5,101 bases of DNA, from positions 1 to 5,101 of the forward strand of contig CAMLLI010000407.1 of assembly GCA_946480685.1 (NCBI GenBank), read 5' to 3'. The DNA is from an uncultured Flammeovirgaceae bacterium (GTDB lineage: Bacteria; Bacteroidota; Bacteroidia; Cytophagales; Cyclobacteriaceae). The position numbers were made by a program, and so were the translations under genes. Each line of letters begins with the position of its first letter. Position 1 is the first letter of the stretch. The notes beneath the pieces were generated by a model. That model searched no databases. It was given only the letters and a program-made list of their open reading frames with translations, and was not told the origin of the DNA. Positions 212-5,101 of this stretch are shown one piece after another.

Positions 212-230
212 AAACTAATTAAATTAGAAT
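212..230. promoter_or_regulatory. Candidate operator 1 (CTAAT-N3-ATTAG inverted repeat)
   Basis: AAACTAAT, the triplet TAA, then ATTAGAAT form an inverted repeat centred on 221. The inner CTAATT-A-AATTAG is perfectly symmetrical and the outer arms are degenerate. The left arm AAACTAAT is identical to the left arm of the second repeat at 234-252. The two centres are 22 bp apart, about two helical turns, so two dimers would sit on the same DNA face. The site lies just upstream of the predicted -33 region of the imuA promoter. The arrangement suits a dimeric repressor; a LexA-like protein is the obvious candidate for an SOS mutasome, but the binding protein is not shown by the sequence. Confidence 0.5.
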
Positions 231-233
231 ATA

Positions 234-252
234 AAACTAATATAATTAGTTT
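234..252. promoter_or_regulatory. Candidate operator 2 (perfect 8-bp arm inverted repeat)
   Basis: AAACTAAT-ATA-ATTAGTTT is a perfect inverted repeat with 8-bp arms and a 3-bp spacer, centred on 243. It ends 1 bp before the -7 element at 254-261, so it fills the spacer between the expected -33 and -7 boxes. A protein bound here would block RNA polymerase. It shares the core CTAAT-N3-ATTAG with the repeat at 212-230. I saw no third copy in the window, which argues against this being simple AT-rich noise. Assignment to LexA or any other regulator is inference. Confidence 0.6.
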
Positions 253-253
253 G

Positions 254-261
254 TAAATTTG
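254..261 (+). promoter_or_regulatory. Bacteroidota-type -7 promoter element for imuA operon
   Basis: TAAATTTG matches the Bacteroidota primary sigma factor -7 consensus TAnnTTTG exactly. Transcription would begin roughly 5-8 nt downstream, leaving an untranslated leader of only about 15 nt before the GTG at 282. No clear -33 TTTG-like box is seen 19-21 bp upstream; that stretch is instead occupied by the inverted repeat at 234-252. A weak -33 element is compatible with a regulated promoter. The call rests on the one motif and its position. Confidence 0.5.
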
Positions 262-281: not shown

Positions 282-1010
282 GTGTCTCAACAGAAAGCCG
301 ATATTCTCGCAGGACTGCAGGCCGATATACTTCGTCTTCAGGGTTTTAAAACTATACAAAATACAGTTTTAGAATCGGGCTTAGGACCGATGAAGTATGC
401 TTTTCCAAACGCAACCTTTCCGCTTGGTGCTATCCACGAATTTGTATCCGCAAGGCCTGAAGAGACAGCTGCCACTATCGGTTTTCTGAACGGATTGTTA
501 AATATACTCACGGGCAATACGGGAGCCGTTCTCTGGATAAGTTCATCGCGTATACTTTTTCCACCTGCATTGAAGAATTTTGGTCTGGATCCGGACCGGT
601 TTATTTTCATCGATGTACAAAAAGAAAAAGATGCACTCTGGGCATTGGATGAAGCCCTTAAATGTAGCGCACTTACGGCTGTAGTAGGTGAACTTCCGAA
701 CATAACCTTCACACAGTCAAGACGCCTTCAACTGGCTGTAGAAGAAAGTCAGGTAACAGGTTTCCTGCTTCGTAATCAGCCGCGCGCGGTAGGTACCACG
801 GCCAGTATATCCCGCTGGTATATTTCGCCACTGCCCAGTGCCTCTATCGATGGACTTCCCGGTATAGGTTTTCAAAAGTGGAGAGTAAATCTTCAACGCA
901 TACGCAACGGCAAACCCGGCACATGGGATATACAATGGATAGACGGACGCTTTGTACCGGTATATCAACCTTCCTTTACAGTACTTCATACACAAAAACA
1001 GGCAGGATGA
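282..1010 (+). CDS. imuA: ImuA-like RecA/SulA-type mutasome accessory protein
   Basis: This 242-residue protein is the first gene of the mutasome operon. The ImuA family is a RecA-fold relative that associates with ImuB and is needed for DnaE2-dependent induced mutagenesis. Recognisable family features are the N-terminal helix (ADILAGLQADILRLQGF, 6-22), the strand FPLGAIHEF (46-54), GAVLWISSS (81-89), the segment GLDPDRFIFIDV (101-112) followed by the helix ALWALDEALK (118-127), LTAVVGELPN (131-140), and SRRLQLAVEESQVTGFLLR (146-164). After the IHEF strand, where RecA carries its Walker A P-loop, the sequence is VSARPEETAATIGF with no GKT/GKS, so ATP binding is doubtful. GTG at 282 is chosen because it retains the N-terminal helix; the first internal ATG is codon 37. 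No convincing Shine-Dalgarno precedes it. The stop codon lies 4 nt before imuB, so the two are probably co-translated. Identification relies on sequence pattern plus the neighbouring imuB and dnaE2. Confidence 0.85.
   Translation: MSQQKADILAGLQADILRLQGFKTIQNTVLESGLGPMKYAFPNATFPLGAIHEFVSARPEETAATIGFLNGLLNILTGNTGAVLWISSSRILFPPALKNFGLDPDRFIFIDVQKEKDALWALDEALKCSALTAVVGELPNITFTQSRRLQLAVEESQVTGFLLRNQPRAVGTTASISRWYISPLPSASIDGLPGIGFQKWRVNLQRIRNGKPGTWDIQWIDGRFVPVYQPSFTVLHTQKQAG
1004..1007 (+). promoter_or_regulatory. Ribosome binding site deciding the imuB start
   Basis: AGGA inside the last codons of imuA is followed by a 7-nt gap to the ATG at 1015, a normal spacing. This supports the 1015 start over the longer in-frame alternative at 952, which would overlap imuA by 59 nt and add 21 residues that do not resemble the family N-terminus. 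Confidence 0.6.
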
Positions 1011-1014
1011 TACT

Positions 1015-2508
1015 ATGGCAAAGCGTTATGTTTCGATCTGGTTCCGGTACTTGACTACCGACTGGTTTACACTCCGCCAGCCACAGTTCAAGACATTGCC
1101 TTTTGTATTGCGTGCCAGTGAACACGGTCGCATGATCATTACCGCTGCTAATGCTATAGCAGAGCAACAAGGTATAACACGCGGCATGGTGCTGGCTGAT
1201 GCGCGTGCCATGATACCCTCGCTGCAAATACAGGATGATATACCTGATCTCGCGAATAAATTATTAAATCGGTTAGCGGAGTGGTGCATTCGCTTTACTC
1301 CGGTTGTAGCAACAGATCCTCCCGATGGACTTATACTCGATGTTACGGGTTGTCCACATTTGTGGGGCGGAGATATACCGTACTTACAAAACATCACTAC
1401 CAAACTATATACACGCGGCTACCATGTACATGCAGCGATGGCCGATACCATCGGTGCGGCCTGGGGTATAGCACGCTTTGGCAATAGCATTGTCATTGAA
1501 CGAAGTAAACATATAGAAGCGCTGATGCATTTACCACCTCAGGCACTGCGACCGGAGCCGGAAGTAGCAGAGCGCTTACATAAACTTGGACTTCACCAGG
1601 TAAAGCAATTCATTCGCATGCCGCGTACATCTTTACGCAAGCGCTTCGGTAATCATTTTATGATGCGGTTAGCACAGGCTTTAGGACAGTTGGATGAAAC
1701 GCTTGAACCTATAGAAGTCCCGGAGCTCTATCACGAACGTCTGCCCTGTCTCGACCCGATCGTTACAGCACCGGCTATAGAAATAGCCTTGCAGCAATTA
1801 CTGGAGAAACTGTGCGCACGTTTACAGCAGGAACAAAAAGGACTTCGTAAGGCTATATTAAAATGTTATCGTGTCGATGGAAAAACAGAACAGGTGTCTA
1901 TCGGTACACATCTTCCCTCCCATCATGTAGAGCATCTGTTCAAATTGTTTCAGTTGAAACTGGCAACTATAGAACCAGCCTTGGGCATTGAACTGTTTAT
2001 ACTCGAAGCACCGGTTGTAGAAGATCATCATCCACAGCAGGAAGCAATGTGGCAAGGTTCAGGTGGATTGAACGATGTGCGTCTGGCAGAACTCATCGAC
2101 CGACTTGCAAACAAGATCGGTATACATACTATACATCGGTATCTTCCGGATGAACATTATTGGCCGGAGCGATCGTTCAAGGCAGCAACATCACTGCAGG
2201 AGAAACCAACAACGTTCTGGCACGATACACCTCGACCACTACAGTTATTGAAAGTGCCTGAAAGCATTGATGTGTCGGCACCTATACCGGATTATCCACC
2301 TATGCTTTTCCGCTATAAAGGGAAAGTGATCAATATAGCAAAAGCTGATGGGCCTGAACGCATTGCACAGGAATGGTGGCTGCAGCAAGGCGAGCACCGG
2401 GATTATTATCGTGTTGAAGACGAGGCCGGTAATCGTTACTGGCTCTTTCGTCTCGGACACTATCACGAAAAGATATACCAGTGGTTTATTCACGGGTTCT
2501 TTGCCTGA
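1015..2508 (+). CDS. imuB: ImuB, catalytically inactive Y-family polymerase homologue (mutasome hub)
   Basis: This 497-residue protein has the length and layout of ImuB. In studied systems ImuB does not polymerise DNA; it docks DnaE2 and ImuA onto the beta clamp. The N-terminus KRYVSIWFRYLTTDWF (3-18) aligns with the Y-family strand that normally holds the first metal-binding aspartate, and no acid occurs in residues 1-15. The second catalytic motif, SxDE in active enzymes, is replaced by DGLILDVTGCPHLWGGD (104-120), a typical ImuB signature. Palm and finger remnants (ITAANAIAEQQGITRGMVLADARAMIP, 42-68) and a thumb-like HhH region (about 170-232) follow. A little-finger-like domain covers roughly 240-335. 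QEAMW (342-346) is a possible clamp-binding peptide. The ImuB C-terminal domain has GPERIAQEWW (446-455) and RDYYRVEDEAGNRYWLFR (462-479). The start at 1015 is 4 nt after imuA. The 48-nt gap to dnaE2 contains no terminator-like hairpin. Confidence 0.93.
   Translation: MAKRYVSIWFRYLTTDWFTLRQPQFKTLPFVLRASEHGRMIITAANAIAEQQGITRGMVLADARAMIPSLQIQDDIPDLANKLLNRLAEWCIRFTPVVATDPPDGLILDVTGCPHLWGGDIPYLQNITTKLYTRGYHVHAAMADTIGAAWGIARFGNSIVIERSKHIEALMHLPPQALRPEPEVAERLHKLGLHQVKQFIRMPRTSLRKRFGNHFMMRLAQALGQLDETLEPIEVPELYHERLPCLDPIVTAPAIEIALQQLLEKLCARLQQEQKGLRKAILKCYRVDGKTEQVSIGTHLPSHHVEHLFKLFQLKLATIEPALGIELFILEAPVVEDHHPQQEAMWQGSGGLNDVRLAELIDRLANKIGIHTIHRYLPDEHYWPERSFKAATSLQEKPTTFWHDTPRPLQLLKVPESIDVSAPIPDYPPMLFRYKGKVINIAKADGPERIAQEWWLQQGEHRDYYRVEDEAGNRYWLFRLGHYHEKIYQWFIHGFFA
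2038..2052 (+). other. Candidate beta-clamp binding motif in ImuB (QEAMW)
   Basis: Residues 342-346 of ImuB read Q-E-A-M-W. Bacterial clamp-binding peptides approximate QxxLF or QLxLW, and ImuB of other bacteria has such a peptide between the little finger and the C-terminal domain, where this one lies. It is preceded by an acidic/His-rich linker (VVEDHHPQ) and followed by a Gly/Ser linker, as expected of an exposed peptide. Met in place of Leu makes it a weak match, so this is a candidate only. Confidence 0.4.
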
Positions 2509-2556: not shown

Positions 2557-5101
2557 ATGAGCTATATAGAGTTACAGGTAACGACAAACTTCAGCTTTCT
2601 GCGGGGAGCCTCTCATCCGGAAGAAATGGTTGAGCAGGCTGCTGCGTATGGCTATACGGCTGTAGCGATTACGGATCGCAATACTTTCGCCGGCCTGGTA
2701 CGTGCCCATGTAGCAGCCCGGAAAAACGGCATTCGTATTATACCGGCTTGTCGCCTTGATCTGCTGGATGGTCCGAGTCTTCTCGCACTCCCTACTGACA
2801 TCCAAGCTTATGCACGGATATCCAATTTACTTACCACCGGGAACCTGCGCGCTGAAAAAGGTAAATGTTTTTTATACAAAGCAGATGTATATAAGTATGC
2901 AGAAGGAACAAAGTTCATCGTTATTCCACCCGACACACTCAATTCCTTTTTTGATTTTGATGATGCTTTCAAAAATGCTGTTCGTGAGTATCGCCAGGTA
3001 TTAGGAGAACAACTCAATATAGGAGCATCACGAACGTATAGCGGTCATGATGCCAAACTACTGCATCGGATCCACCAGCTTTCGAAAGAACTGAATATAC
3101 CCATGGTGGCCACCAATGACGTGCACTACCATCATGTTGAACGCAGAGAATTACAAGATATAGTTACGTGTGTTCGTGAAAAATGCACTATATATACCGC
3201 AGGATTCCGTCTGCACGCCAATGCTGAACGATACCTCAAGCCCATTGAAGAGATGCACCGGCTCTTTCGGCAATATCCGGCGGCAATCGAACAGACAAAC
3301 GTCATAGCTGCGTCCTGTACGTTTTCACTTGATCAACTTAAATATCAATATCCAAAAGAAGTTACCAGTGAAGGGCGCACACCCCAGCAGGAACTTACCC
3401 ACCTCACGTGGGAGGGTGCTAAAAAAATCTTTGGAGAAGATATACCCGAAAAGATACAAGCCAATATATTGAAGGAATTAAAATTTATCGAGCATGTAAA
3501 CTATGCCGAATACTTTCTCACGGTATACGATATTGTGCGTTACGCACGTTCAGAAAAAATTCTTTGTCAGGGACGTGGCTCTGCTGCTAACTCTACAGTA
3601 TGTTATTGTCTTGGTATAACTTCAGTTAATCCCTCCAAGTTCGATTTACTTTTTGAAAGATTTATTTCATCGGCACGAAATGAACCTCCTGATATAGATG
3701 TAGACTTCGAGCACGAAAGACGCGAAGAAGTTATGCAGTATATATATAAGAAGTATGGACGAGAACGGGCAGCCATTGTAGCAACGGTTACACAGCAACA
3801 TCACCGCGGTGCGATCCGCGATGTAGGTAAAGCAATGGGACTTTCCGTTGATACAATTCAACGACTCTCGGGATTGATCTGGGATTTTCGCGATGAAGGG
3901 TTTGATAAAGATCGCATCGTCAGTCAGGGTATAAACCCGGATGATCCTACGATTCGAAAAGTATTACAGCTTACCGAGCAGTTTATGGGTTTTCCGCGTC
4001 AGCTCGGACAGCACACCGGTGGCTTTGTGATCACGGAGGGCAACCTGGCAGACCTGTGTCCTATTATCAACGCGCGCATGGAAAACCGCACCAACATCGA
4101 ATGGAACAAAGACGATATTGAAGCCTTGGGATTTCTGAAGGTCGATGTACTTGCACTTGGCATGCTTACCTGTATACGCAAGGCATTCGATCTAGCCAAA
4201 CAACATTACAACCTCGATCTTACGTTGGCCAATATACCGCAGGATATTGAGGCTGTATACGAGATGATCAGTCATGCCGATACCATTGGTGTATTCCAGA
4301 TTGAAAGTCGCGCCCAGCAATCCATGTTGCCGCGCTTGCGACCAAAATGTTTTTATGACCTTGTTATCGAAGTAGCAATTGTACGTCCAGGTCCTATACA
4401 GGGCGATATGGTACATCCATACTTACGCAGACGCAATGGCGAAGAGAAAGAAGAATATCCATCGCCAGAACTTGAAGATATACTGAAACGTACACTAGGC
4501 GTACCGTTGTTTCAGGAACAGGCTATGAAGATCGCAATTGTCGCTGCAGATTTCACTCCAGCAGAAGCTGATGAGCTCCGCAGAAGTATGGCAACCTTTA
4601 AAGCGAAAGGCAGAGTCTCATACTTTAAAGATAAACTTATCAAAGGTATGACCGGCAATGGCTATACACTTGAATATGCACAACGTGTGTTCCGGCAACT
4701 TGAAGGCTTCGGTAGCTATGGATTTCCGGAGAGCCATGCAGTGAGTTTTGCGTTGCTGGTATATGTATCATCGTGGATAAAATGTTTCCATCCCGATATA
4801 TTTGCCTGTGCCCTGCTCAACAGCATGCCCATGGGATTCTACCAGCCTGCACAAATTGTGAGTGATGCACGTAACCATGGTGTGGAAGTATTACCGGTAG
4901 ATATAAATCATTCTGATTGGGACAATAAACTAGAAGCAAAGGGCGGTAAACATTGTGCACTTCGTCTCGGCTTCCGCCAGGTAAAAGGTCTTCGCGAAGA
5001 CGATATGAAAGTATTGATGCGGGCACGAAACAGCGGATATACTTCTGTTCATGCACTGCGTGAAACAGGGCTCTCCGAAATTGTGCTTGAAAAATTAGCG
5101 A
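2557..5101 (+). CDS. dnaE2: DnaE2 (ImuC) error-prone DNA polymerase III alpha subunit, 3' end missing
   Basis: An uninterrupted frame of 848 codons runs to the window edge. Family proteins are roughly 1,000-1,080 residues, so the C-terminal OB-fold region lies outside. DnaE2 is the C-family polymerase that performs lesion bypass in the mutasome. An N-terminal PHP-like domain (about 1-270) shows NFSFLRGASHPEE (11-23), AITDRNTFAGLVRAH (37-51) and VATNDVHYHHVERRELQD (184-201). The polymerase core includes CQGRGSAANSTVCYCLGIT (337-355), PDIDVDFEHERR (378-389), GFPRQLGQHTGG (478-489), LKVDVLALG (527-535), VRPGPIQGDMVHPYLRRR (609-626), VPLFQEQAM (649-657) and GFPESHAVSFALL (722-734). D381, D383 and D530 match E. 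coli DnaE D401, D403 and D555, so the enzyme should be active. NSMPMGFYQPAQIV and the LRLGFRQVKGLRE segment near the edge are DnaE2-type rather than replicative DnaE1 signatures. The PHP metal-binding HxH is replaced by Q7-V-T, so no PHP exonuclease activity is expected. Confidence 0.95.
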   Translation, partial: MSYIELQVTTNFSFLRGASHPEEMVEQAAAYGYTAVAITDRNTFAGLVRAHVAARKNGIRIIPACRLDLLDGPSLLALPTDIQAYARISNLLTTGNLRAEKGKCFLYKADVYKYAEGTKFIVIPPDTLNSFFDFDDAFKNAVREYRQVLGEQLNIGASRTYSGHDAKLLHRIHQLSKELNIPMVATNDVHYHHVERRELQDIVTCVREKCTIYTAGFRLHANAERYLKPIEEMHRLFRQYPAAIEQTNVIAASCTFSLDQLKYQYPKEVTSEGRTPQQELTHLTWEGAKKIFGEDIPEKIQANILKELKFIEHVNYAEYFLTVYDIVRYARSEKILCQGRGSAANSTVCYCLGITSVNPSKFDLLFERFISSARNEPPDIDVDFEHERREEVMQYIYKKYGRERAAIVATVTQQHHRGAIRDVGKAMGLSVDTIQRLSGLIWDFRDEGFDKDRIVSQGINPDDPTIRKVLQLTEQFMGFPRQLGQHTGGFVITEGNLADLCPIINARMENRTNIEWNKDDIEALGFLKVDVLALGMLTCIRKAFDLAKQHYNLDLTLANIPQDIEAVYEMISHADTIGVFQIESRAQQSMLPRLRPKCFYDLVIEVAIVRPGPIQGDMVHPYLRRRNGEEKEEYPSPELEDILKRTLGVPLFQEQAMKIAIVAADFTPAEADELRRSMATFKAKGRVSYFKDKLIKGMTGNGYTLEYAQRVFRQLEGFGSYGFPESHAVSFALLVYVSSWIKCFHPDIFACALLNSMPMGFYQPAQIVSDARNHGVEVLPVDINHSDWDNKLEAKGGKHCALRLGFRQVKGLREDDMKVLMRARNSGYTSVHALRETGLSEIVLEKLA

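Follow-up and report, generated by a model that had tools for sequence, protein, structure and literature searches.

Probable tandem operators of the Bacteroidota non-canonical LexA upstream of imuA in the Ohtaekwangia lineage, with a possible helical phasing of paired boxes

In the 5,101-nucleotide stretch of DNA analysed here, referred to below as the window, positions 212-252 very probably hold two adjacent operators of the non-canonical LexA of Bacteroidota, which would repress the imuA promoter and be freed by damage-induced self-cleavage of the repressor. Both the operator class, of which the two boxes are a well-conserved example, and the target are known, whereas the tendency of such paired CTAA-N5-TTAG boxes to lie whole helix turns apart looks new. 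We lean towards the view that the pairs are under helical-phase selection, with repressor dimers placed on the same face of the DNA, either side by side (two turns, as at imuA) or bridging the promoter (three, five or six turns), which would imply a CI-like cooperative repressor complex whose spacing evolves by whole turns. The features of the window are as follows.

215 to 227, no strand assigned: box 1, CTAATTAAATTAG; extended form 212-230, with imperfect outer arms; retained in four relatives.
237 to 249, no strand assigned: box 2, CTAATATAATTAG; extended form 234-252, with perfect 8-bp arms; retained in four relatives.
254 to 261, plus strand: TAAATTTG, a match to the presumed Bacteroidota -7 element TAnnTTTG; kept in 5/5 aligned promoters.
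282 to 1010, plus strand: imuA, 242 aa, with a GTG start at 282; NCBIfam ImuA model at E 1.6e-20, which is below the cut-off of that model; homologues are named ImuA.
1015 to 2508, plus strand: imuB, a relative of the Y-family polymerases, with an ATG start at 1015; PF00817, 50.5 bits.
2557 to 5101, plus strand: dnaE2, an error-prone polymerase extending past the end of the window; NF004225 at 1181 bits (above cut-off) and Pfam.

Exact matches to CTAATN3ATTAG were found only at these two sites of the whole window, with their centres 22 bp apart. The longer form AAACTAATN3ATTAGTTT, with up to 3 mismatches allowed, matched only 212-230 (2 mismatches) and 234-252 (none), where 0.01 matches were expected in the window and none of 200 shuffles held two. 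The initial annotation had described tandem palindromes at this distance, perfect 8-bp arms of the downstream one next to the -7 element, and no further copies in the window; all of this was confirmed. As 3.3 chance matches per window are expected for the short core when 2 mismatches are permitted, the significance of the sites is carried by their exactness, tandem placement and conservation. The stretches 206-227 and 228-249 also form a 22-bp direct repeat (82%).

The -7-like element, named by its match to TAnnTTTG, which we take to be the Bacteroidota -7 consensus, begins 2 bp past the extended box 2, and no -33 element was recognised upstream of imuA in the window. An inverted repeat, TTGTAG-N11-CTACAA (259-281), lies between the -7-like element and the imuA start and is probably due to chance, since it is absent from the four aligned relatives. 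The best named relative of the window ImuA is that of Ohtaekwangia koreensis (82%), and the genome closest by ImuA is a MAG labelled Chitinophaga (90%). The contig CABHOK010000007.1 (L001), labelled "uncultured Chitinophaga", has the imuA nearest of all to that of the window and a promoter that aligns with Ohtaekwangia, and its label may be wrong.

The motif is CTAA-N5-TTAG, already published as the box of the non-canonical LexA of Bacteroidetes, a protein with an XRE-type HTH and an S24 peptidase; both dyads, with the 5-bp spacer, are exact at the two window sites. According to the main text of Sanchez-Osuna et al. 2021 (PMC8565304), Bacteroidetes genomes encode no LexA homologues, and a COG2932-type HTH/S24 repressor of P. 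actiniarum, the S24 domain of which was modelled as overlaying LexA and CI, binds CTAA-N5-TTAG, with binding lost when either dyad or the spacer length was changed; mitomycin C induces the target genes in the same organism. The same main text reports the box in front of Bacteroidetes genes for UmuC/DinB and UmuD, lists imuA-imuB-dnaE2 among the targets, and states that the Cytophagaceae regulators could be assigned to neither type. Because motif, binding and induction are described there, the window motif is a known kind of operator, and the initial suggestion of an undescribed SOS operator is not upheld; the other part of that reading, namely that the imuABC promoter is overlain by tandem operators of LexA type, probably for an S24 repressor, is supported.

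If regulation in the window organism works as in other Bacteroidetes, a repressor dimer would sit on each box in undamaged cells and the imuA promoter would be blocked. Upon DNA damage, RecA-stimulated self-cleavage would remove the repressor, and once it is gone ImuA-ImuB-DnaE2 would be made. We infer that dimers on the two boxes occlude the promoter and, given the two helical turns that separate the boxes, may cooperate on one face of the DNA.

Conservation was followed in imuA loci from a genome scan, of which the best 80 of 448 relatives were used; one of these (L062) had no usable upstream DNA, leaving 79. An exact CTAA-N5-TTAG was present within 250 bp upstream of imuA in 66/79 relatives, against 0.675 loci expected from shuffling, so that the motif is indeed conserved before orthologous imuA genes. 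Taken together, the loci span 509 kb and hold 95 sites, of which, by hand count, 86 fall in the imuA upstream stretches. A single box is carried by 47 of the 66 box-bearing relatives, and two or more by the other 19. When the window was aligned with L001-L004, both boxes, TAnnTTTG and the GTG context were kept in 5/5, and the bases further upstream of the boxes varied. Among the 13 upstream regions with no exact box, which include all six Dyadobacter of the 80 loci, a one-mismatch box was found in none except L064, at -161. Three of the six Dyadobacter (L039, L064 and L080) have a GATA-N7-TATC-like palindrome about 30-50 bp upstream of imuA, e.g. GATACCAAAAGTATC in L064, which is possibly a diverged box of this group.

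Pairs of AT-spacer boxes were then sorted by centre distance in 295 genomes of the O. koreensis family. There were 60 pairs at 28-43 bp, 43 at 44-73 bp and, at 13-27 bp, 75 listed of roughly 113, against 10, 2 and 0 pairs, respectively, for the reversed-word control. Of the longer pairs, 55 lay at 28-34 bp with a peak at 33 bp (28 pairs), one each at 37 and 39 bp, three at 41-42 bp, 33 at 50-54 bp and ten at 60-63 bp, with none in the 295 genomes at 43-49, 55-59 or 64-73 bp. For distances of at least 28 bp (n=102, two pairs of one region being counted once), R was 0.68 at 10.5 bp, with phase 0.0. Each pair was assigned mechanically to its nearest reading frame and the genes were clustered by BLAST, which covered 137 loci, namely all long pairs and 35 of the 75 listed short ones. 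With every combination of gene family and distance counted once (n=44), R was 0.60, and 5/44 were out of phase vs 46% if the distances were uniform.

At the 19 imuA loci with at least two boxes, neighbours stand 21-23 bp (17 loci), 33 bp or 61 bp apart, all 19 in phase. In 34 genomes reached via imuA loci, several of them shared with the 295, the 51 pairs within 13-43 bp (distances read by hand) occurred only at 18-23 or 32-33 bp, with 0 control pairs, and sampling across the phylum gave 14 pairs in 9/395 genomes. Of the 75 listed short pairs, 74 measured 15-25 bp and one 27 bp. Since pairs 15-20 bp apart are common and out of helical phase, short pairs do not obey a strict two-turn rule, and a phase rule, if any, may hold only beyond direct contact. 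L173 and three further pairs have a distance of only 15 bp, which leaves 2 bp between the boxes, and the one case examined lies at a PHP/DnaE-like gene; two separate dimers could not be accommodated next to each other at 15 bp in the usual manner.

The cluster referred to as C1 (L249-L261 and others) encodes a conserved small protein, mostly of 81-98 aa, with pairs at 50-54 and 61-63 bp; the gene is often next to a protein-L-isoaspartate methyltransferase (PF01135), and the example tested gave no Pfam or NCBIfam match. The cluster C3 (L108, L118, L119, L161 and L218) comprises unknown proteins of about 112-228 aa downstream of paired boxes, two examples of which had no Pfam match. A fixed position of the -7 element was also considered and rejected: TAnnTTTG lies between the boxes in 7/8 C3-gene promoters (32-34 bp spacing), but in the window it follows box 2. 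As it was found in only 31/126 promoters of five distance classes, no rule on its position is claimed.

In the family of Mucilaginibacter (191 genomes), 27 pairs within 28-58 bp were found, only at 28-33 and 52-55 bp (control 10), and R was 0.57 for the 13 unique ones. The paired genes were dinB, imuA (33 bp), XRE-S24, UmuD-like and HD-domain-like, the last two read from sequence; gene names in this family and in that of Chitinophaga were assigned by hand. The family of Chitinophaga (186 genomes) gave only 11 pairs (control 2), at 29, 30, 39, 42, 42, 46, 46, 46, 47, 47 and 56 bp, and here helical phasing failed (R=0.20). The five pairs at 46-47 bp (L294 and L296-L299) are out of helical phase; four of them stand by members of a single family of genes, WbqC-like as read from sequence and not obviously SOS, and the fifth has no assigned gene. 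When the three families were pooled (unique n=64), R was 0.51 with a best period of 10.55 bp, and 0 of 20000 uniform draws were as high, although these statistics are guides rather than probabilities because the sequences share ancestry.

A rival explanation, which we regard as possible, if somewhat doubtful, is that the boxes are true LexA boxes acting independently, with the 22 bp at imuA a relic of tandem duplication and the helical pattern a product of shared ancestry. The 82% likeness of 206-227 to 228-249 fits such a duplication, the species are related, out-of-phase pairs at 15-20 bp are common, Chitinophagaceae lack phasing, and most box-bearing relatives manage with one box at imuA. 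On the other hand, long pairs stay in phase though their intervening DNA is unrelated, and one and the same gene is found with distances that differ by whole turns, e.g. imuA at 22, 33 and 61 bp and the C1 gene at 50-54 and 61-63 bp. The phasing also remains when repeated combinations of gene and distance are removed (R 0.60), and across the three families. Because the distances follow a 10.55-bp period, which is the DNA helical repeat, the sequences suggest that repressor dimers cooperate on one DNA face.

Genome-wide frequency, proposed initially as a way of telling the motif from AT-rich spacer DNA, gave a divided answer, for the AT-spacer box was no commoner than its reversed word in O. 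koreensis (G001, 14 vs 20) and in the closest MAG (G002, 12 vs 14), but commoner in two Chryseolinea (10 and 9 vs 5 and 5). By hand count, a second AT-spacer box stands within 33 bp of 10 of the 14 boxes in G001 and of 10 of the 12 in G002. The pair distances in G001 are 22, 22 (imuA), 31, 33 and 33 bp, with a further pair at 32 bp, the other box of which has G in its spacer. Paired boxes stand between a divergent dinB (labelled from sequence) and an XRE-S24 gene in both genomes. Boxes also precede a TIGR03916 radical-SAM gene (family named from the G002 copy) and a Radical_SAM gene (labelled COG1533-like from sequence), adjoin unknown genes of 228 and 113 aa, and in the wider genome sample precede recA. 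The single boxes L110, L113, L115 and L121 are not next to recognised SOS genes, and two of the four fall within long reading frames.

The XRE-S24 protein of the nearest genomes has HTH_3 and Peptidase_S24 domains. Its Ala-Gly, Ser and Lys, the latter two presumably being the catalytic dyad, are invariant in 24/24 relatives, these being the members of a cluster of 25 that were long enough; a search for similar solved structures returned only relatives of the HTH domain, with E up to 0.001. It had also been suggested that a dedicated non-LexA regulator of imuABC binds the palindromes, and this we reject as very improbable, because the box serves several SOS genes, being found in the nearest genomes before dinB, the XRE-S24 gene and radical-SAM genes (TIGR03916 among them), and elsewhere before recA; moreover, the box is given in the main text of PMC8565304 as the site of the XRE-S24 repressor. 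As for chance palindromes in AT-rich spacer DNA, the loose core is indeed expected 3.3 times in the window, but the conservation of the boxes (66/79 imuA upstream regions, 5/5 close promoters), together with an expectation of 0.01 for the extended form, refutes this reading with hardly any doubt left.

A probable non-canonical LexA operator pair at 212-252 means that, in the Ohtaekwangia lineage, a mutagenesis operon would answer to the SOS repressor already known from Bacteroidota. If the spacing rule is right, a phage-type repressor turned SOS master switch would have retained the cooperation of its dimers, and a steep, threshold-like induction of error-prone repair is predicted. Paired, phased boxes would then be a better sign of a true SOS promoter than single boxes, which are no commoner than the control word in G001 and G002.

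Compared with the Bacteroidetes regulon described in the main text of PMC8565304, the half-sites, the 5-bp spacer and the target operon are the same, as are the occurrence of more than one box in some promoters and, judged from the relatives of the window, the repressor family and the self-regulation of the repressor gene. The lineage is new here, the word Ohtaekwangia being absent from that main text. Distance and phasing between boxes are, by word search, untreated in the main text, where "cooperativ" does not occur and "spacing" occurs once, for spacers inside a box. No title on the spacing of Bacteroidota SOS boxes was found beyond that paper, which is not proof of absence from print. GGA-N5-TCC, which belongs to the other group of the same repressor family, was found in 0/79 imuA upstream regions of the relatives. 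The Bdellovibrio LexA box TTAC-N3-GTAA, named in the main text of PMC8565304, is likewise short and palindromic, and shares the 3-bp centre when the window site is written as CTAAT-N3-ATTAG, but its half-sites differ in sequence and its repressor is a winged-HTH LexA. Lambda CI differs in serving a phage switch, and at the window boxes cooperation is something we infer from spacing; its operators are alike in having neighbours about two turns apart, cooperating dimers and S24-type self-cleavage. In lambda CI, it is the S24 C-terminal domain that mediates cooperation between dimers.
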